Shown here: piece after piece, positions 2,458 to 62,861 of the stretch
How positions within the stretch are numbered: the first letter of the stretch is position 1
Layout of the letters: each line of letters starts with the position of its first letter
Source of the DNA: a virus
Direction: 5' to 3' (one strand)
Virus record (IMG/VR): IMGVR_UViG_3300032291_002524
Span: 1-64,000 of that record
DNA length: 64,000 bases
Program-made: the position numbers and the translations under genes
The notes under the pieces: generated by a model
Told to the model about the DNA's origin: nothing
Database searches by the model: none
What the model saw: the letters and a program-made list of their open reading frames with translations, nothing else

Positions 2458-4094
2458 TAACAATAGGATATAGTACGAGAAAATCTAATCCTGAACTACA
2501 AGAGTATTTCAGAAAATCTTGTGGATTACCTAAAACACAAGTGATTGAAAAAGTTAATCCTGATGGTAGGTCACTAACTGAAATTTATAATGAAATTTTA
2601 AATGAATCAGAAAATGACATTGTAGTGCTTTGTCACGATGATATTTACTTTGAGACCAAAAGTTGGGGTAATAACATTTTATCCCATTTTAAAAAAACTA
2701 ATTTCGGTATTTTAGGGGTTGCCGGTTCAACAAGTATCCCATCTTCGGGTATGTGGTGGGAAGATAAGAGAAAAATGATTGGAATTGTTAATCATGAACA
2801 CGAAGGAAAAAAATGGGAATCAAAATATTCAAATAGTTTAGGTAAACAAATACATCCAACAATAATTGTTGACGGTTTGTTTATCGTAATAAGTAAAAAA
2901 AGAATTATACATCAATTTGACACTGAAGTTAAAGGATTTCATATGTATGATGTTGATTTTTGTTTTAAAAATTATTTGTCGGGTATTGAAGTTGGTGTTA
3001 TGTACGATATAAGAATCACCCATAAATCAATTGGTATGACGAATGATGAATGGGAAAAAAATAGAATTTTATTTTCTGAAAAGTTTAAAGAAAATTTACC
3101 AATCAAAATCAACAAAACTAAATCAGATAAGCTAAATATCCTAATTAGTTGTTTGTTTTTTAAAACATTTACCGGTTCTGAAATTTATGTATATGAATTA
3201 GCCAAAGGTTTGATAAAACAAGGTCATAATGTGTCCGTATTATCCGAAATTGGGGGGCCATTAACCGATATGGCAAAAAAAATTGGGATTAAAACTTTTT
3301 CATTAAAAGAACCTCCGGGTTATAAAATGGGGGACGGGGTTTGGGGTATTAACACACCTCACGGGTTTCAAATATCACAAGAAAACATGTTATATAAAAT
3401 TAACGATGTTAATTTTGATATCATCCATGTTCAACACGAACCCGTTACCAATATGATTTTACAGTTATATCCTGATATCGAAAAAATTTCAACAATACAT
3501 TCAGAAGTCATTGATTTGGAAAAACCAGTAAAACATGATTCCATCAAAAAATACATTGCAATTAGACCTGAAATTAAAGAACATATTGTTGAACATTATG
3601 ACATTAATGAAAATTTAGTTGATGTCATTTATAATCCTATCGATGAAAATAGATTTAAATCTGATAATATTAAGACGAAAAATTATGTTTTGTTTGTCGG
3701 TACTATTGATTACTTGAGAGAACAAACAATACGTGATTTAGTTGAATATACTAAAGAAAAAAACATGGAACTTTGGTTAGTCGGTGAAGATAAGTCTGAA
3801 TATTTAAATGAAATTTTAAGTCATATCCATGTTAAAAAAATAATACCAACTTGGAATACTGAAAAATATATAAAAGAATCACAAGAAACTGCGGGTATTT
3901 TATTAGGTAGAACGACCATTGAAAGTTGGATGTGTGGTAAAAAATCTTGGATTTATGATGTTGATAAATCAGGAACGATTCTTTCTAAGAAATTAACCGA
4001 ACCCCCACATGATATTCATAAATTTCATGCAAGTTCGGTAGTAGATAAACTGATTGATAATTATTTAACAATAATAAATGAAACTACTCATTAA
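2454..4094 (+). CDS. Two-domain glycosyltransferase: StrF-like GT2 plus GT4-like
   Basis: Residues 1 to ~215 resemble the StrF-type GT2 domain, with LCHDDIYFE as the acidic metal/nucleotide-binding patch and a conserved GVAGS...MWWED block. From about residue 227 a second Rossmann-like domain begins (SCLFFKTFTGSEIYVYELA), typical of the acceptor half of GT4 enzymes. It is followed by an FVGTIDY segment and a late ILLGRTTIESWMCG donor-site helix. The protein may therefore add two successive sugars. It overlaps both neighbours by a few bases inside the coupled cluster. Sugar specificity cannot be read from the sequence. Confidence 0.75.
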   Translation: MITIGYSTRKSNPELQEYFRKSCGLPKTQVIEKVNPDGRSLTEIYNEILNESENDIVVLCHDDIYFETKSWGNNILSHFKKTNFGILGVAGSTSIPSSGMWWEDKRKMIGIVNHEHEGKKWESKYSNSLGKQIHPTIIVDGLFIVISKKRIIHQFDTEVKGFHMYDVDFCFKNYLSGIEVGVMYDIRITHKSIGMTNDEWEKNRILFSEKFKENLPIKINKTKSDKLNILISCLFFKTFTGSEIYVYELAKGLIKQGHNVSVLSEIGGPLTDMAKKIGIKTFSLKEPPGYKMGDGVWGINTPHGFQISQENMLYKINDVNFDIIHVQHEPVTNMILQLYPDIEKISTIHSEVIDLEKPVKHDSIKKYIAIRPEIKEHIVEHYDINENLVDVIYNPIDENRFKSDNIKTKNYVLFVGTIDYLREQTIRDLVEYTKEKNMELWLVGEDKSEYLNEILSHIHVKKIIPTWNTEKYIKESQETAGILLGRTTIESWMCGKKSWIYDVDKSGTILSKKLTEPPHDIHKFHASSVVDKLIDNYLTIINETTH

Positions 4095-44889: not shown

Positions 44890-45348
44890 TTATTCGTATT
44901 TTTTAAGTTCGTCCCTAACCTTAATGGCTTCTTCGAATTCTTGTTTTTCAATATGAGATTTTAATTTTTCTTGTAATTCATTAATTAAACCTTCATTTTC
45001 TTCAAGGTCTTTAATTGTATCACGAAGTTTAATCGCCAATAGAAAATCTTCATTCTTAACCGCAATATCCAATTCTTTCTTTAAAGATTCGATTTTTGAT
45101 GTTGGTTTGTTTTCTTTTCTTTTATCACTACCATCATATGTTTTTATATAAGTTGTGATTTTATAAAAACCATCTTTTGATGTGTATGTTTGTTTGGTCC
45201 AATCCCCATTAGAATCTGAACCATTTTCGGTTTTTGTTTCACCTTTAAAAGTTAATGGTGAATCATAACCACCAATCATTTCATTTAATTCATCCATAAG
45301 TTCTTTTAAACTTTTACTGTTTCTTCCAAATAAATCGAACATATTCAT
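44890..45348 (-). CDS. UVR-motif protein, McsA-like
   Basis: 152 aa. The C-terminal half carries two UVR motifs, KKELDIAVKNEDFLLAIKLR near residue 90 and KLKSHIEKQEFEEAIKVRDE near residue 130. The first ~75 residues are unrelated and lack the CxxC zinc fingers of true McsA. UVR motifs mediate protein contacts in UvrB/UvrC, ClpC and the ClpC adaptor McsA. Its divergent neighbour is a ClpC-like unfoldase that itself has a UVR segment, so an adaptor role is plausible but inferred. Start is immediately beyond an AT-rich leader without either promoter motif. Confidence 0.7.
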   Translation of the reverse strand: MNMFDLFGRNSKSLKELMDELNEMIGGYDSPLTFKGETKTENGSDSNGDWTKQTYTSKDGFYKITTYIKTYDGSDKRKENKPTSKIESLKKELDIAVKNEDFLLAIKLRDTIKDLEENEGLINELQEKLKSHIEKQEFEEAIKVRDELKKYE

Positions 45349-45469: not shown

Positions 45470-45500
45470 GTTGATTATCTAAAAATTAATTTTATATTTG
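45470..45500 (+). promoter_or_regulatory. Host-type promoter of the clpC-like gene
   Basis: GTTG at 45470-45473, 19 nt, then TATATTTG at 45493-45500, matching the Bacteroidota TTTG / TAnnTTTG arrangement. The predicted transcription start falls at or just before the ATG at 45507, so the mRNA would be leaderless or nearly so. Confidence 0.6.
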
Positions 45501-45506
45501 TGGTGT

Positions 45507-47567
45507 ATGATAGATTTTGACGATAATCAAGAAGCAGGAAAGAAGAAAACTTCCAAATCAGAAAATACGGGAAGTTCAACCCCCGTTTTAGATAATTTTT
45601 CTCGTGATTTAATTAAATTGGCATCCGAAGGTAAATTAGACCCCGTTATTGGTCGAGATATTGAAATTAATAGACTTGCCCAAATTATATCAAGGAGAAA
45701 GAAAAATAACCCAATATTAATCGGTGAGCCCGGTTGTGGAAAAACAGCTGTGGTTGAAGGATTGGCCATCAAAATTTTTGAAGGTAATTGCCCTCAAAAT
45801 TTGTTAGATAAACGAATTGTTAGTTTGGATATGACATCAATCGTTGCAGGTACCAAATATCGTGGTCAATTTGAAGAACGTTTAAAAGTTATTTTAGATG
45901 AACTTCGAGATAATCATGAAACCATTGTGTTTATTGATGAAATTCACACAATTATAGGTGCGGGTAATTCTTCGGGGTCACTTGACGCATCCAACATCTT
46001 TAAACCTGCACTTGCACGTGGAGAACTCCAATGTATCGGAGCAACAACCTTGGACGAATATCGGGAACATATTGAAAAGGACGGAGCATTGGAAAGACGG
46101 TTCCAAAAGGTTTTAGTTGAACCATCTTCAATTGAAGATACAATCACAATCCTAATGAGAGCCAAGGAAAACTATGAAAAACACCATAAAGTTTTCTTCA
46201 GTGAAGAATCAATTAAAGCATGTGTTCATTTGGCCGATAGGTATATAACTGACCGAAGTTTTCCTGATAAAGCAATTGATATCATGGATGAAGTCGGAGC
46301 TCGTAGTCAAATCGCTGTTAAATTACCGGAAGTTATTGAACAGTTAAAAGAAGAAGCTGAAAAAATAAAACAGAGTAAGTTAGATGTTGTTAGAAATCAG
46401 AGATTTGAGGAAGCCGCAGAACTTCGTGACCGTGAACGAAAAGTGTTAAAACAATTACAAGAAGAAAAAGAAAAGTTTGAAAATGACCGTTTAACAAATA
46501 AAAAACTTGTCGATGAGAACATGGTGTATGAAGTGGTTGCATCAATGACAAAGATACCAATCACCAAATTGACACAGTCAGAATCAGAATCACTACTTCA
46601 ATTAGAACAAAATTTACAAAATTCAGTTATTGGTCAAGATGATGCTGTTAGTAAAATTGCAAAGGCAATCCGACGAAATCGTGTTGGGATTAAAGAACCT
46701 AACAAACCAATTGGTTCATTTATTTTTCTTGGGTCCACAGGTATTGGTAAAACCCATTTGGCTAAACAATTAGCAAAAGAAGTTTTTGGTGATTCGGACG
46801 CATTAATTCGAATGGATATGTCAGAATATCAAGAAAAATTTACAATGTCTCGTTTGATTGGTTCACCTCCGGGTTATGTTGGATTTAATGAAGGAGGTCA
46901 ATTGACTGAACAGGTTAGAAATAAACCATATTCGGTAATATTATTTGACGAAATCGAAAAGGCCCATAAAGATATCTTCACTTTATTGTTACAAACAATG
47001 GACGAAGGGTTCTTAACCGATAGTAATGGTAGAAAAATTAATTTCAAAAATACCGTTATTATTATGACATCTAACATTGGTGCTAGAAAAGTTCAAGAAT
47101 TCGGTGCTGGTGTTGGTTTTGGCACAAGTGCTAAAATGGATAAAGAACTTGAAATAAAGAAAATGGCAGTAGAGGATGAACTGAAGAAGTTTTTCCCACC
47201 TGAATTTATAAATCGTGTTGATGATATTGTATTCTTTAATTCATTAAAAGAAGATGAAGTGAATCAGATTGTTAAAATTGAATTATCAAAATTAACCAAC
47301 AGACTTTCATCTATGAACTATAAAATCGAAATAGGTGACGAAATGTTGAAACATATTTGTGAAATTGGTTTCGATGAAAAGTTTGGGGCCAGACCTATTA
47401 AAAGAGCAATTCAAAGTCAAATTGAAGACTTTATTTCCGATGAAATATTAAAAGGTAATTTAATCACTGATATTGAATATACTGTGGATTATATAGATGG
47501 TTCACCTTTATTAATAACCAAAGATTCAAAACCGAAACGAGTAAAGAAAAAGAAAGAAACTGAATAA
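45507..47567 (+). CDS. ClpC/ClpA-type AAA+ unfoldase without N-terminal repeat domain
   Basis: 686 aa from the ATG at 45507 (a TTG nine bases earlier lies in the promoter). There is a ~28-residue low-complexity leader, then two AAA+ modules. The first has Walker A GEPGCGKT at residues 73-80, TIVFIDEIHTIIGAG as Walker B, and the RRFQK arginine region. The second has GSTGIGKT at ~409-416 and VILFDEIEKAH. Between them lies a UVR-like segment (RNQRFEEAAELRDRE). The VGF tripeptide at residues 536-538 is the ClpP-docking loop of ClpC/ClpA enzymes. The Clp_N substrate/adaptor domain is absent. Expected to feed substrates to ClpP, possibly the phage ClpP at 62181. Confidence 0.9.
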   Translation: MIDFDDNQEAGKKKTSKSENTGSSTPVLDNFSRDLIKLASEGKLDPVIGRDIEINRLAQIISRRKKNNPILIGEPGCGKTAVVEGLAIKIFEGNCPQNLLDKRIVSLDMTSIVAGTKYRGQFEERLKVILDELRDNHETIVFIDEIHTIIGAGNSSGSLDASNIFKPALARGELQCIGATTLDEYREHIEKDGALERRFQKVLVEPSSIEDTITILMRAKENYEKHHKVFFSEESIKACVHLADRYITDRSFPDKAIDIMDEVGARSQIAVKLPEVIEQLKEEAEKIKQSKLDVVRNQRFEEAAELRDRERKVLKQLQEEKEKFENDRLTNKKLVDENMVYEVVASMTKIPITKLTQSESESLLQLEQNLQNSVIGQDDAVSKIAKAIRRNRVGIKEPNKPIGSFIFLGSTGIGKTHLAKQLAKEVFGDSDALIRMDMSEYQEKFTMSRLIGSPPGYVGFNEGGQLTEQVRNKPYSVILFDEIEKAHKDIFTLLLQTMDEGFLTDSNGRKINFKNTVIIMTSNIGARKVQEFGAGVGFGTSAKMDKELEIKKMAVEDELKKFFPPEFINRVDDIVFFNSLKEDEVNQIVKIELSKLTNRLSSMNYKIEIGDEMLKHICEIGFDEKFGARPIKRAIQSQIEDFISDEILKGNLITDIEYTVDYIDGSPLLITKDSKPKRVKKKKETE

Positions 47568-47665: not shown

Positions 47666-48487
47666 TTAACTAAATAACATCCACCGTTCCATTTTTGGTT
47701 GATGGTCGTATTTAACATTACCCAAAGATTCAATCATTTTTTTACCCATTTCAATCGAGTTAAATAAATCTTCAATTACCACATATTCATTCGGTGTGTG
47801 ATAATCATAATACCCACAAGATACATTAATACATGAAATGTTAAATTTACCTGTAATCTGAGATACATCGGTATAAGGATGTTTCATCAATTCATGTTTA
47901 GGTCCCATGTATTGTTCTAATAATGGACCAACTTTTTCGAAAAATTCAGAATCACGGTCAAATAACTTAACCCCCCAACAATATTCAGTAACCATCCAAG
48001 ATTCGGGTGCGTCGTATTGAATTGCATATCCAACATTCGAAAAGAATTCAGGGTCTGCTTTTCTTGAACCGTGACAACCTGTTTCTTCCGCTACGAAAAA
48101 TGCGACTTTTAAAACATCTAATTGTTCTAAAAGGTCTAAACCTGCGTAAACACCACATTTATCGTCACCACCAATACCAACTGGTCTTCCTGTATATTTG
48201 TGATATGCTTTAAATGAAGGTTTTTCAACACCATATACATTTGGTAACATTTCTTCTCTAACAACCATATCGGTTATTGAGTGTACAGTATCTGTGTGAG
48301 CAATAACACATGGGTACCACTCAGCAGTACCTTTGGTTACATAAATGTTTCCATTTTCTTGAACTTTGTAATCGTAATTTTTTGATTGCAAGTACTCAAC
48401 CAAGTATTGAATCATCAAATCTTCTTGATAAGTTTTTGTAGGTATGGATAATACCTCTTTCAGGTGGGCAATTTTTTCTTCTGTCAT
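47666..48487 (-). CDS. M20/M28-superfamily zinc peptidase
   Basis: 273 aa. Metal and catalytic motifs of co-catalytic zinc exopeptidases occur in order: IAHTDTVHS near residue 63, GIGGDDKCGVYAGLDLLE near residue 105, FFVAEETGCHGSRKA near residue 130 (general-base Glu in EET), and YHTPNEYV near residue 235. It lacks the separate dimerisation domain of many M20 enzymes. Substrates are probably small peptides. Preceded by a host-type promoter, and neighbour of the clpC-like gene, so it may process peptides released by Clp proteolysis (inference). Confidence 0.85.
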   Translation of the reverse strand: MTEEKIAHLKEVLSIPTKTYQEDLMIQYLVEYLQSKNYDYKVQENGNIYVTKGTAEWYPCVIAHTDTVHSITDMVVREEMLPNVYGVEKPSFKAYHKYTGRPVGIGGDDKCGVYAGLDLLEQLDVLKVAFFVAEETGCHGSRKADPEFFSNVGYAIQYDAPESWMVTEYCWGVKLFDRDSEFFEKVGPLLEQYMGPKHELMKHPYTDVSQITGKFNISCINVSCGYYDYHTPNEYVVIEDLFNSIEMGKKMIESLGNVKYDHQPKMERWMLFS

Positions 48488-50693: not shown

Positions 50694-50725
50694 TTTGGAA
50701 GTTTAATAAAGTATTTATATATTTG
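50694..50725 (+). promoter_or_regulatory. Host-type promoter of the tmRNA locus, overlapped by a late motif
   Basis: TTTG at 50694-50697, 20 nt, TATATTTG at 50718-50725, a full Bacteroidota-type promoter. A plus-sense TATTTATA (50712-50719) overlaps its -7 element by two bases, so the locus could be read both early and late. Predicted start is near 50731-50733, at the first base of the structured leader. Confidence 0.65.
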
Positions 50726-50731
50726 TATAAG

Positions 50732-50812
50732 AAATCACGGGTGGCTCCCTTAATAGTTAAGGCTGACCTTAAGCATCTGACGTTATGTCTATACAGGGGG
50801 CGAAAGTGATTT
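50732..50812 (+). ncRNA. Structured leader RNA upstream of the tmRNA
   Basis: An ~81-nt element begins where transcription is predicted to start. Outer helix AAATCAC (50732-50738) with GTGATTT (50806-50812). Second helix GCTCCC (50744-50749) with GGGGGC (50796-50801). Inside, TTAAGG ctga CCTTAA (50757-50772) forms a hairpin, and an upstream CCTTAA (50748-50753) can pair with the same TTAAGG as an alternative. It is not a tRNA: no T-arm or anticodon arm can be drawn. The element is 21 nt upstream of the tmRNA 5' end. Function unknown. Confidence 0.5.
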
Positions 50813-50833
50813 TCATAAGTTCTTTGAAAATAT

Positions 50834-51216
50834 GGGGATGACACAGAATTGATTGGCGTGGTTAGTCAATTGGTGCACGTATGAGCTGAATTAACTCATT
50901 AAAAACTGATTTAAAAACACAAACGGCAACGTTTTAAATAAAATGGCTGCTTGCGGTTTAATCCGTGAAGACGCTGCTGTTGTAGCTTAATCAGCACAAC
51001 ACACTCAGGTCGGGGGACATATAACCTAGGAACAGAAGTCTTTAGAGGTGTGGTTTCTATCTTAAAAGAAACAAGTGGAGGATTAGTTCTCAGTAAACCG
51101 AACCACTATAAAATAAGGGAATTGTGAATTTCGGAACATTAGCAAATGTTGACCTAAACGTGTAGGACCTTTTGGTTAAGACGAACAAGACCGCGGGGCA
51201 GTGCCGCGCATCTCCA
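50834..51216 (+). ncRNA. ssrA: tmRNA (transfer-messenger RNA), one-piece
   Basis: 383 nt. Acceptor helix GGGGATG (50834-50840) with CATCTCC (51209-51215), then unpaired A; CCA is not encoded. T-arm helix CGCGG/CCGCG is directly adjacent. Long helix: TTAGTCAA (50862-50869) with TTGGTTAA (51172-51179) and TGCACGT (50874-50880) with ACGTGTA (51158-51164), matching the conserved GGUGCAUG region of other tmRNAs. ATGAG/CTCAT hairpin at 50881-50899. The tag frame runs 50919-50990, with its stop in the loop of a GCTG/CAGC helix, the normal arrangement. tmRNA with SmpB frees stalled ribosomes and tags the product for proteolysis. The T-loop is atypical. Confidence 0.9.
50919..50990 (+). other. tmRNA tag reading frame, 23 codons
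   Basis: Aligning the tmRNA with that of E. coli places the resume codon at ACA (50919). The frame reads TNGNVLNKMAACGLIREDAA, then VVA and stop TAA at 50988-50990. It is about twice the length of common tags and ends AAVVA, hydrophobic like the usual ALAA degron but not identical. The resume codon is inferred by alignment and could be off by one codon. Confidence 0.7.
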
Positions 51217-51270
51217 GGCTCACAATTGAATACCTCCACGTGGTGTGAGCTGGGTAACGCTAAATTCAAT
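51217..51270 (+). other. H-type pseudoknot in the tmRNA 3' trailer
   Basis: Stem 1 is GGCTCACA (51217-51224) with TGTGAGCT (51244-51251), one G-U pair. Its loop contains ATTGAAT (51225-51231), which is perfectly complementary to ATTCAAT (51264-51270). It begins at the first base after the tmRNA discriminator. It may guide 3' processing or block exonucleases (inference). Confidence 0.55.
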
Positions 51271-51296: not shown

Positions 51297-51329
51297 TAAA
51301 GTGGTCAAATTCGACCACTTTTTTTTTGT
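51297..51329 (+). terminator. Rho-independent terminator of the tmRNA transcript
   Basis: AAAGTGGTC / GACCACTTT stem (51298-51321) with a 6-nt loop, then a T-run. Its T-run also supplies the -33 element of the next promoter. Confidence 0.9.
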
Positions 51330-51376: not shown

Positions 51377-52114
51377 ATGAACACAATCATTAAACACAAC
51401 ACAAGAGTAAGAAATTACAACGGGCAAAACGATTTTATCCGTAAAATGAAAGAAGTTGTATATCAGTACGGAGGATTAACAGAAAAACAAGCATTGGCAG
51501 TTGAAAAGGCACTTAGTGAGAAAACAAATGTCGATACTCGTTCCTTACCAGATAATCTAAAATCGATTGCCGATTATTCGGGGGATAATGTATTCGTGTT
51601 GGATGTTAAAAGTAAATTCCTTAAATATGGTACTTTAACAGATGCCCAAGTATCTGCGGCGAATAAACAAATTAAAAAAGAAGACGAATCAAAACAACGT
51701 ATTGATGTCAATATTGATGTGATTGGTGAAACAGTAATTGTTGGTCGAAACACGGGTGAAAAGTTGAAGAAAGATAAAGGTTTAAATTTTAACCCTGTTC
51801 TATTGGATATTACCGAAGTTATGACCTTAACTGCTAAGGCAATTAAATTTAAAGGTAAATTAACAACTAAAAACGGTAACATTTGTAAGTCTTGCGGACG
51901 AGTATTAACTGATGAATTTTCACGGTTAACGGGTTATGGTAAGACTTGTGCGAAACATTTGGGTGTTGAATATATTAAAGACGAATCTGAAGTTGAGCGT
52001 TTTAATCAGGAAGCACTTCAAAAAGTTGAAGAAATTGGTGAAATGGAATTTTGGGTTCCTCGTCGTCAAATCAAAGTATGGAATGGTGAAAGTGCAATTT
52101 TAATGAAAATGTAA
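51377..52114 (+). CDS. DUF6011-like zinc-finger protein
   Basis: 245 aa. Near residue 170 the motif NICKSCGRVLTDEFSRLTGY followed by GKTCAKHLG matches the DUF6011 zinc finger (CxxCGRxL...GxGxxCxxH), with three Cys and one His as ligands. The N-terminal 160 residues are unassigned; they include a repeated pattern (GGLTEKQALAVEKAL and YGTLTDAQVSAANKQI). Likely nucleic-acid binding. The next gene starts at the base after its stop. Confidence 0.7.
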   Translation: MNTIIKHNTRVRNYNGQNDFIRKMKEVVYQYGGLTEKQALAVEKALSEKTNVDTRSLPDNLKSIADYSGDNVFVLDVKSKFLKYGTLTDAQVSAANKQIKKEDESKQRIDVNIDVIGETVIVGRNTGEKLKKDKGLNFNPVLLDITEVMTLTAKAIKFKGKLTTKNGNICKSCGRVLTDEFSRLTGYGKTCAKHLGVEYIKDESEVERFNQEALQKVEEIGEMEFWVPRRQIKVWNGESAILMKM

Positions 52115-52594
52115 ATGCAGACGTTCCTACCTTATCCCGATTTTAAAGAAAGTTTCCGAGCCTTAGATAATAAAAGACTCGGAAAACAAAGAGTTGAATC
52201 ATTTCAAATTTTAAATGCGATATTAGGTCGACCAAAAAAAGACGGTAAACCATATAAAGGGTGGTTAAATCATCCGTGTTCGATTATGTGGAAAGAGCAC
52301 GTTCCGGCCCTTCAAATGTATTTTAATGAATGTATTGATGTATGGATTGAACGCGGATTTAAAAATTCGATGGAATATGAAGAATATGTTGGTGAAATAA
52401 TCTTACCTGATTGGATAGGATACGAAGCATTTCACGCATCTCACAGAGCCAATTTACTTAGGAAGGATTTAACATATTATTCACAACATAATTGGGATGA
52501 AAATCCTGATGACCCATACTTATGGCTAGACGATAACAAAACTTGGTATCAACAAATAGTTGGGTCGAAAAAAAGGGTTTATTTGATTAAATAA
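52115..52594 (+). CDS. Pyrimidine-dimer glycosylase-like protein (MSMEG_6728 type)
   Basis: 159 aa. The start QTFLPYPDFKESFRALDNKR, LGKQRVES, HPCSIMWKEHVPALQMYFNE and EAFHASHRANLLRKD follow the MSMEG_6728-type family, related to T4 endonuclease V. In that family the N-terminal residue after Met removal and a conserved Arg/Glu set act in excision of pyrimidine dimers. Activity here is expected from family, not shown. Directly after the zinc-finger gene. Confidence 0.8.
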   Translation: MQTFLPYPDFKESFRALDNKRLGKQRVESFQILNAILGRPKKDGKPYKGWLNHPCSIMWKEHVPALQMYFNECIDVWIERGFKNSMEYEEYVGEIILPDWIGYEAFHASHRANLLRKDLTYYSQHNWDENPDDPYLWLDDNKTWYQQIVGSKKRVYLIK

Positions 52595-52622: not shown

Positions 52623-53120
52623 ATGGAGACTGTAATAGTATTAAATTTTGATTATACACCATTAAACGTAACTTCTATACGTAGAGGTTTTGTATTAGTG
52701 GACAAAGGAAAGGCGGAGATTTTAAAAGAATATGATGACCCAATTATCACAACAGTTGGTAGGTTGGTGAAACCATTAATTATACGATTATTAAAATTTA
52801 TCAATTATCATAATAAGAAAGATTTAAAAATTTCAAGACAAAGAATCTATCAAAGGGATGGATTTCAATGTGTGTATTGCGGTACGTATAAAAATTTAAC
52901 AATTGACCATGTAATGCCTAAGTCACGTGGTGGTGCCAATTCTTGGGAAAATATGGTTACTTGTTGTTTTACTTGTAATTCAAAAAAAGGTAGTAAAACA
53001 CCTGAAGAGGCAAATATGTCAATGAGAGTTCGTCCGTATAAACCATCGGTATTCTCAGAATTGGTTGCAGGAAGGGCTGCAAATATTTGGCAAAGTCTTC
53101 AGAAAGAAATTTTTAATTAA
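52623..53120 (+). CDS. HNH endonuclease
   Basis: 165 aa. The HNH core is KISRQRIYQRDGFQCVYCGT, then TIDHVMPKSRGGANSWENMV and CCFTCNSKKGS. It carries the catalytic His in DHV, the Asn in SWENM and two CxxC zinc knuckles. The preceding ~60 residues (VLNFDYTPLNVTSIRRGFVL) are the standard N-terminal extension of this free-standing bacterial HNH type. Probably not an intron homing enzyme, as the region shows no split gene. Confidence 0.9.
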   Translation: METVIVLNFDYTPLNVTSIRRGFVLVDKGKAEILKEYDDPIITTVGRLVKPLIIRLLKFINYHNKKDLKISRQRIYQRDGFQCVYCGTYKNLTIDHVMPKSRGGANSWENMVTCCFTCNSKKGSKTPEEANMSMRVRPYKPSVFSELVAGRAANIWQSLQKEIFN

Positions 53121-62180: not shown

Positions 62181-62861
62181 ATGAACAATACAGATTTTAA
62201 AAACTATTTTACCAAACACTTGGGTAAAGGCTCATTAATGTTGGATTATTACAACCAAAGAATTGAAGATTCGATGACACCTTATATTTTGGAAGAAAGA
62301 GAGATGAGAGTGACCCAGATGGATATTTTTTCACGATTAATGAGGGACCGTTTACTATGGGTGGCGGGGCCTGTTGATGATAACATGTCCACAGTTGTCC
62401 AAGCACAATTAATGTATTTAGATTCGGTTAATAATATGGACATAACGATGCACATTGATTCGCCAGGTGGCTCTGTTAAATCCGGTTTATCGATGATTGA
62501 CGTTATGGATTATATATCATGTGATATTCACACCATTAATACCGGTATGGCAGCATCCATGGGTTCCGTGTTGTTAGGCGCTGGAACCAAAGGTAAACGT
62601 TCGTCTTTAAGATTTTCACGTACCATGTTACACCAATCTTCAGGGGGTTTCCGTGGAAATATCCAAGACGCTAAGATTGATATGATTGAGTGGGAGAAAG
62701 TGAATAAGATTTTATTTGATTTGTTAGGTTCATATTGTGATAAATCGGCAGAACAAGTAATGGAAGACGCTTCTCGTGACCTGTGGTTAGATTCCAAATC
62801 TGCGTTAGAATACGGAATTATTGACGAAATTATTACATCAAAAAATAAAATGAAAAAATAA
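62181..62861 (+). CDS. clpP: ClpP-type serine protease
   Basis: 226 aa. Catalytic Ser126 in GMAASMGS, His151 in TMLHQSS and Asp200 in SRDLWL; the Ser-His and His-Asp spacings (25 and 49) are the same as in E. coli ClpP. HIDSPGGSVKSGLSM is the conserved oxyanion region. The N-terminal ~50 residues are longer than the usual ClpP N-terminus and could shape interaction with an unfoldase. An AGGAGA lies 16-11 nt upstream of the ATG, inside the end of the preceding gene, but this spacing is too long for a normal Shine-Dalgarno. It is a natural partner of the clpC-like gene 15 kb away. Confidence 0.92.
   Translation: MNNTDFKNYFTKHLGKGSLMLDYYNQRIEDSMTPYILEEREMRVTQMDIFSRLMRDRLLWVAGPVDDNMSTVVQAQLMYLDSVNNMDITMHIDSPGGSVKSGLSMIDVMDYISCDIHTINTGMAASMGSVLLGAGTKGKRSSLRFSRTMLHQSSGGFRGNIQDAKIDMIEWEKVNKILFDLLGSYCDKSAEQVMEDASRDLWLDSKSALEYGIIDEIITSKNKMKK

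Follow-up and report, generated by a model that had tools for sequence, protein, structure and literature searches.

Does the stretch at positions 50834 to 51216 of a viral genome encode a genuine transfer-messenger RNA (tmRNA), and if so, how would the 3′ end of this RNA be made? The stretch lies in the window analysed here, the 64,000 nucleotides at positions 1 to 64,000 of IMG/VR record IMGVR_UViG_3300032291_002524 (the whole record is referred to as G000). A first-pass annotation had described a complete tmRNA gene, and all the parts that it named were found at exactly the bases given. At the first base past the gene as annotated there begins a candidate HDV-like ribozyme, which that annotation did not contain. 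We consider it highly likely that the locus is a one-piece phage tmRNA gene whose 3′ end is the product of this cis-acting ribozyme.

The tmRNA gene and its parts

The gene comprises the following features.

50834..51216, plus strand: one-piece tmRNA, mature part without CCA (RF00023 and family comparison)
50834..50840, plus strand: acceptor stem 5′ strand GGGGATG, pairing with 51209-51215
50925..50990, plus strand: tag reading frame GNVLNKMAACGLIREDAAVVA (50925-50987) and stop TAA (50988-50990)
51192..51208, plus strand: T-arm, CGCGG / loop GGCAGTG / CCGCG
51209..51216, plus strand: acceptor stem 3′ strand CATCTCC (51209-51215) and discriminator A (51216), no CCA encoded

The acceptor stem has seven pairs including G3-U70, which together with the discriminator A gives the RNA an alanine identity. 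Joined to it is a T-stem of 5 bp with a 7-nt loop that reads GGCAGTG and not TTCRANN. The tag is 21 amino acids long and ends in VVA, and its stop codon, as read from the sequence, sits in the loop of a TGTTGT...ACAACA hairpin. Acceptor, P2, tag, stop-codon loop, T-arm and G3-U70 are common to this gene and the one-piece tmRNAs of RF00023; the window gene differs from them in its predicted ribozyme-made 3′ end, the missing CCA, the GGCAGTG loop and the VVA-ending tag.

The Rfam comparison that had been proposed as a check came out at the limit. With permissive filters only, RF00023 matches 50834-51217 over its full length (model positions 1-374 of 374) at 47.2 bits (E 1.7e-17), where the gathering score is 47, and the posterior is low in the middle of the alignment, the pseudoknot region of the tmRNA. 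The score barely reaches the cut-off, which counts against the assignment. A fast, default-filter Rfam run over the whole window gave 0 matches, ARAGORN called 0 genes in the window, and in an RF00023 search of the window's own record this place was not among the matches listed. RF04321, the model of the permuted two-piece tmRNA, gave 10.8 against 47, and the order is 5′ half then 3′ half, so the gene is not permuted. The fold energy of the stretch is unremarkable (z -1.51, with 7 of 100 shuffles equally good), and proof of a tmRNA must therefore be comparative.

Related phage tmRNAs

In four related loci, found via the neighbouring protein, a tmRNA occupies the corresponding position next to the 717-aa neighbour and scores 53.6-100.8 bits with RF00023; two of these loci (L130 and L131) gave identical results. 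Two DNA patterns, together with the window and L129, brought the related phage tmRNAs to 50 distinct ones (64 placements), and a second extraction, in which the boxA-like string and full stem pairing were required, led to 54 distinct tmRNAs in 71 placements. Among these 54, acceptor pairs 5-7 and T-stem pairs 1-5 vary yet stay paired; as pairing was a condition of the extraction, only the variety counts as evidence. G3-U70 is present in 54/54, although any pair was allowed there.

The tags were compared by codon position. In 189 pairs of similar tags, 740 differences fall at the first, 209 at the second and 1050 at the third position, a pattern best read as the coding signature of the tag frame. 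Four of the 54 tmRNAs, those without a parsed tag (L229, L236, L242 and L248), were left out of this comparison; by eye, the tags of L229 and L236 are of the same type, with a GGA resume codon. Judged by its parts and by this family comparison, the stretch at 50834-51216 is a real phage tmRNA. A CCA is encoded in 32 of the 50 distinct tmRNAs, and the ribozyme is found in 0/32 of these; it is found in 3 of the 18 where CCA is absent.

ARAGORN gives no tmRNA call for the window, L195, L221, L229, L233, L236 or L251, and these misses show how annotation overlooks such tmRNA genes. A blastn search of the RNA locus against GenBank phages returned three short matches, to LR756500 and to two gut-phage ribozymes behind tRNAs. 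LR756500 has its own tmRNA with a boxA-like string before it, and no such ribozyme in the stretch examined. By DNA similarity, no GenBank phage record was found with the window's tmRNA gene, and L183, L235 and L248 likewise had no matches among GenBank phages; L234 has a 32-nt match in Synechococcus phage S-CRM01.

The T-loop and D-loop variant

The window tmRNA and three related groups (L130, L132 and L197) have the T-loop GGC[AG]GT[AG] instead of TTCRANN. All four of these tmRNAs have AG in the D-loop, versus GG in 48/48 parsed TTC-type tmRNAs; the script failed to parse 2 of the 54 D-loops, both of which are GG by eye. A fifth one-piece tmRNA with the variant T-loop (L431/L508) encodes CCA and has AG in its D-loop too.

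A T-arm scan yielded, among the matches listed, mostly permuted tmRNAs, and ARAGORN called 8 of 12 sampled loci permuted two-piece tmRNAs (its tmRNA* class). Among the matches listed, the D-loop of permuted tmRNAs starts with A in 18/18 distinct parsed cases, a count that excludes 11 placements without a D-loop parse. The T-arm type GACCGnnGGGCRGTRCnnCGC is common to permuted two-piece tmRNAs and the window tmRNA, as is the A replacing the first D-loop G, whereas the order is permuted in the former and the window gene is in one piece. Permuted two-piece tmRNAs also occur in marine phages, according to the available text of PMC9004378. The altered T-loop was considered as the mark of a pseudogene, and this was dropped because the loop is usual in permuted tmRNAs and the D-loop changes along with it. 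Rather than decay, the variant loop, with the D-loop altered to match, is better seen as a tmRNA type that already exists and is here found, unusually, in a one-piece gene; the one-piece cases may go back to a single event.

An HDV-like ribozyme at the 3′ end

51217..51270, plus strand: HDV-like (theta-type) ribozyme, predicted cleavage 51216/51217 (RF01787, RF02682, descriptor and blastn)

The ribozyme starts at the base after the tmRNA discriminator, and the predicted site is between the discriminator A and G1. Its parts are P1 GGCTCAC/GTGAGCT (7 pairs), P2 ATTGAAT/ATTCAAT (7), P3 ACC/GGT (3) and L3 TCCACGT, with a predicted catalytic C at the start of J4/2, in CTAAA; the descriptor finds the nested double pseudoknot of P1, P2 and P3 with the conserved L3. 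The matches of two Rfam families start exactly at 51217 and lie below their gathering scores, RF01787 (drz-agam-1) at 31.8 bits (E 2.4e-4; gathering 37) and RF02682 (HDV-F-prausnitzii) at 27.5 bits (gathering 44). The extended P4 of these families is absent from the window copy. By blastn, the window ribozyme matches two human-gut phage records (E 1e-4 and 4e-4), where it stands behind tRNA-Leu and tRNA-Met. HDV-like ribozymes cut just 5′ of their own first base, and the tmRNA would therefore end ...CATCTCCA, with CCA to be added. Self-cleavage at the 3′ end of the window tmRNA is probable.

The abutment of the two RNAs was assessed by a descriptor search of 2.07 Mb, comprising G000 (106,315 bases), L129-L228 (956,382; collected via the neighbour protein, leader and tag patterns) and L396-L510 (1,005,737; collected via the T-arm pattern, matches listed). 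These loci had been chosen without regard to ribozymes, and some share a contig. When the L3 motif is included in the full descriptor there are three matches (window, L195 and L221), and in 3/3 the ribozyme starts immediately past a tmRNA discriminator, which argues firmly that the abutment is not chance. Dropping the L3 motif leaves a loose descriptor: it fits 22 of the 18,745 window positions that carry a G (one of them the true site) and also 4 of 5,500 shuffles.

Under the rule for tRNA-associated ribozymes the cleavage site is at most 5 nt from a tRNA 3′ end; here the adjoining RNA is a tmRNA, and the window ribozyme is accordingly classed, by motif and position, as theta-type but not tRNA-associated. 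No theta ribozyme was found after any of the 32 listed tRNA genes of G000. L130, L132 and L197, the window's closest tmRNA relatives that share its T-loop, have no ribozyme, and it is therefore dispensable in this clade.

Recurrence of ribozyme-bearing tmRNAs

A pattern joining a tmRNA-type T-arm to the ribozyme gave 24 loci, of which 12 are tmRNA ends and the other 12 are unrelated by eye, mostly GC-rich. The tmRNA ends are those of L195, L229, L233, L234, L235, L236, L239, L248 and L251 and copies (L238 and L240 identical to L235, L242 differing from L236 by one base). This set together with the window, L221 and L389 makes 12 distinct ribozyme-bearing phage tmRNAs, and the predicted cut is exactly at the discriminator in 12/12. 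In the 11 tmRNA-flanking candidates, which were picked by pattern or eye, P1, P2, P3, L3 and the catalytic C are complete in every case, with differing stem sequences. The motif C[TCA]AA[AG] is also found in 11/11, the C itself being demanded by the descriptor. L389 has A, not G, at ribozyme position 1.

With RF00023 the ribozyme-bearing tmRNAs score 54.3 (L195), 67.1 (L221), 63.4 (L229), 64.3 (L233), 64.7 (L236), 108 (L239), 119.5 (L248) and 81.1 bits (L389), and 46.9 bits, just under the cut-off, for L251; the identity of the L234 and L235 tmRNAs comes from an ARAGORN call. The Rfam HDV model scores 27.6, 31.4 and 37.1 bits at L195, L229 and L236, all below 44, and has no match at L221 (E up to 1) or at L233, L239, L248, L251 and L389 (E up to 0.1). 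The P1/P3 geometry fits 13 of 152 matches (in the loci collected at that stage, the window itself left out). Ten of these are tmRNA ends, with L242 (a near-copy) and L001 (a copy of the window) counted in, and the other three (L100, L273 and L282) are GC-rich coincidences. The ribozyme-bearing tmRNAs have at least six tag types, namely the GNVL type (window, L195, L221, L229 and L236) and those of L234, L235, L239, L248 and L389, and repeated acquisition of the ribozyme is therefore argued.

A scan for the strict theta core gave 22 loci, of which 9 adjoin a tRNA (L395 by offset reading), 3 adjoin a tmRNA, 2 follow tRNA-like 3′ ends outside the ARAGORN calls, 7 have no RNA gene called beside them and 1 is at a locus edge. 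A scan of genome contigs with a strict pattern requiring the TTCGA loop gave one match, a tRNA-Ala with a ribozyme, and two broad viral pattern scans gave mostly GC-rich coincidences among the matches listed. As a separate observation, the theta ribozymes at L378 (near 6258) and L388 (near 672) come after tRNA-like 3′ ends without an ARAGORN call, which may belong to tRNAs that are split or interrupted.

Relation to known systems

Phage tmRNAs are known from 402 of 18,146 phage genomes in the available text of PMC9004378, and are also described in the part of PMC12656738 that could be consulted. Huge phages encode tmRNA and SmpB (PMC7162821, available text), so that both trans-translation partners are phage-encoded, as in some relatives of the window phage; that text mentions no ribozyme at the tmRNA, and G000 differs in having no SmpB match. 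Theta ribozymes at gut-phage tRNA ends were described by Kienbeck et al. (2024; PMC10879173). In the accessible text of that study, as here, the minimal HDV-like fold belongs to Caudoviricetes and has its cleavage site where a CCA-less phage RNA has its 3′ end, the RNA being a tRNA there and a tmRNA in the window. The same text places 42% of theta ribozymes away from a tRNA, and some of these could be unrecognised tmRNA cases; its main text does not contain ‘tmRNA’, ‘transfer-messenger’ or ‘ssrA’.

The 3′ end of E. coli tmRNA is made by several host ribonucleases, according to the available text of PMC3968760. The main text of the 2025 tmRNA database paper (PMC11915505), as far as it is accessible, does not contain ‘ribozyme’, and the open-licence literature, including the available texts of PMC8040213 and PMC10085705, yielded no description of a tmRNA that ends at a ribozyme. 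A ribozyme-ended phage tmRNA joins two already known kinds, the phage tmRNA and the theta ribozyme.

Putative transcription signals and neighbouring genes

50694..50725, plus strand: promoter-like TTTG (50694-50697), 20 nt, TATATTTG (50718-50725)
50732..50812, plus strand: structured 5′ leader RNA module, 81 nt, four helices, very high sequence conservation
50819..50830, plus strand: boxA-like GTTCTTTGAAAA immediately ahead of the tmRNA 5′ end
51298..51327, plus strand: intrinsic terminator-like hairpin and T-run, read from the sequence
52115-52594: pyrimidine-dimer glycosylase, downstream of the tmRNA
52623-53120: HNH endonuclease, downstream of the tmRNA

The promoter and terminator that the gene had been credited with are both there as resemblances. 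The promoter-like element is one that we take to be the Bacteroidetes-type -33/-7 consensus, and from the promoter type only, the hosts of the window lineage would be Bacteroidetes. TAnnTTTG is found within 135 nt upstream in 50/50 family tmRNAs. The boxA-like string presumably resembles rrn boxA, and GTT[CA][TA]TT lies within 25 nt upstream of the 5′ end in 49/50. About 28 nt separate the ribozyme from the terminator-like hairpin, the next listed same-strand reading frame starts at 51377, and the tmRNAs of L129-L132 are followed by a similar hairpin and T-run.

The leader module occurs as 35 distinct 108-nt stretches. In alignment A1 (19 sequences) 98.6% of cells are paired, and 6 pairs are changed on both sides, compared with 1.2 in shuffles; Rfam searched at E up to 10 gave chance-level matches only for the module. 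It lies upstream of tmRNAs and of tRNA arrays (L140, L144 and L175 by ARAGORN; L141, L145, L164 and L176 by likeness), and once inside a tmRNA (L169:3182-3268, in the ARAGORN tmRNA at 2972-3443). A tie between the module and the altered T-loop proved wrong, as the T-loop is TTCGA in most tmRNAs that carry the leader, and the leader is missing from the L197 group despite its variant loop. Antitermination, 5′ protection and ligand sensing are guesses at its role. Apart from this, L129/L183 have a different leader sequence at the position of the module upstream of the tmRNA, and L215, L206 and L210 have a short hairpin in its place.

The gene had also been placed between a late-type gene and an HNH operon. 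Downstream are a DUF6011 protein, the glycosylase and indeed an HNH endonuclease; the upstream neighbour is the 717-aa protein without assigned function, and nothing marks it as late.

Protein partners

44890-45348: UVR-motif protein in the window
45498..47567, plus strand: ClpA/C-like double AAA+ unfoldase (phrog_4871, ‘ATP-dependent protease’)
47666..48487, minus strand: M20-like peptidase (phrog_4191)
62181..62861, plus strand: ClpP-like protease (PF00574, 183 bits)
L514:5230-5664, L515:5099-5533 and L516:618-1052: phage SmpB genes near a tmRNA

The UVR-motif protein, the unfoldase, which has no N-domain call, and ClpP form a possible phage Clp protease. Neither SmpB nor a CCA-adding enzyme was found in G000, a record that may be incomplete. 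Among 18 related or ribozyme-bearing records, ClpP is present in 6, SmpB in 3 and a CCA-adding enzyme in 1, the last in a ribozyme-bearing record (G012). The distances between SmpB gene and tmRNA are 90, 650 and 710 nt, and G014 is the ribozyme-bearing one of the three records; the SmpB proteins of L514 and L515 match phrog_6791, whose function is unknown in PHROGs and which is SmpB by Pfam.

G008 and G014 have in common the order unfoldase, peptidase, unknown protein, tmRNA, SmpB, and the window has the same order without SmpB. G011 has reading frames of the same size in the same order, of which only SmpB was profile-checked. The unfoldases of the window and G014 are 64% identical, and the unknown proteins of the window and G008 are weakly alike.

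Proposed mechanism and alternative explanations

The RNA parts, their conservation and their exact abutment can be read in the DNA itself, and from them we infer expression, cleavage, healing, charging, tagging and a protease that reads the tag. Transcription would run from the Bacteroidetes-type promoter through leader, boxA-like signal, tmRNA and ribozyme to the terminator. The theta-type ribozyme would fold once transcribed and cut between 51216 and 51217, leaving a tmRNA that ends at the discriminator A with a 2′,3′-cyclic phosphate. This end would be healed, and CCA added, by host enzymes or by phage enzymes that were not seen. AlaRS could then charge the phage tmRNA with alanine through G3-U70. 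SmpB would presumably be host-supplied here and phage-encoded in some relatives, and stalled nascent chains would be tagged with GNVLNKMAACGLIREDAAVVA for Clp-type proteolysis. The idea that the phage tmRNA tags stalled products or overrides the host tmRNA, put forward in the first-pass annotation, is plausible on this evidence. Real trans-translation is favoured because the tag frame is conserved and SmpB lies near the tmRNA in three relatives.

The tmRNA could be functional and the ribozyme a decayed or slow passenger, the 3′ end being made by endonuclease, exonuclease and CCA addition. Such processing must serve in the same-T-loop relatives that lack the ribozyme, and the Rfam HDV scores are sub-threshold, but the ribozyme retains all its helices, L3 and the catalytic C, and its site falls at the exact base in 12 distinct tmRNAs, which makes a passenger improbable. 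It is similarly doubtful that the RNA is a decoy that, by binding to SmpB or to ribosomes, would block host trans-translation or redirect it, an explanation compatible with ribozyme processing. For a decoy speak the odd T-loop, the failure to find SmpB in the window's record and the window tag, which we take to be unlike ALAA-type tags; the coding signature of the tag frame, the presence of SmpB close to the tmRNA in 3 relatives, and the phage ClpP and unfoldase speak against it. A precedent is phage DS6A, whose CDS-less tmRNA-like RNA inhibits E. coli tmRNA (PMC11915505, available text).

There is only a slim chance that the ribozyme serves another task, such as removal of the terminator hairpin or generation of the 5′ end of a downstream RNA. 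Although 7 of the 22 strict-motif theta loci have no adjacent RNA gene called, the cut is exactly at the discriminator in 12/12 cases, and neither the terminator hairpin, about 28 nt past the ribozyme, nor the next same-strand frame, from 51377, adjoins it. A remnant of host ssrA, left by integration or imprecise excision, would draw on the known use of ssrA as an integration site (PMC11915505 and PMC12656738, available texts). It is already contradicted and hardly credible, given the full-length gene with its own promoter-like element, its distinct tag within a phage-wide family and a gene order common to phage records.

The self-cutting phage tmRNA is thus the preferred reading. If it is true, the 3′-end step would be autonomous from host ribonucleases, and the known work of HDV-like ribozymes would be widened from tRNA to ribosome rescue. 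The catalytic C offers a one-base switch for testing tmRNA maturation in infected cells. We also lean, with moderate confidence, towards a broader interpretation in which tmRNAs finished by a ribozyme form a general class in phages, acquired repeatedly, and belong here to a phage-owned trans-translation kit that keeps rescue under phage control. As part of this interpretation, a cis HDV-like ribozyme would replace the encoded CCA or host 3′ processing in diverse phages, and the kit, consisting of tmRNA, sometimes SmpB, a ClpA/C-like unfoldase, ClpP and a dedicated 21-aa tag, would be used when host RNA processing is failing.

Other RNA elements

GOLLD RNA was seen 0.7 to 2.5 kb from the ribozyme-bearing tmRNAs of L195, L221, L229 and L236. 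At 74-94 kb of G000 (L002 and L003) there is a cluster of about 30 tRNA genes, many of them without an encoded CCA. Five odd tRNA-like genes (within L002:14315-14968, L003:2347-2440 and L003:5554-5640) start with AGTCAGGTGG and end near TGACTA, and have abnormal lengths or anticodons. Among the tRNAs is also a freshwater-1 RNA at L003:4248-4310, with 70.1 bits (gathering 72).
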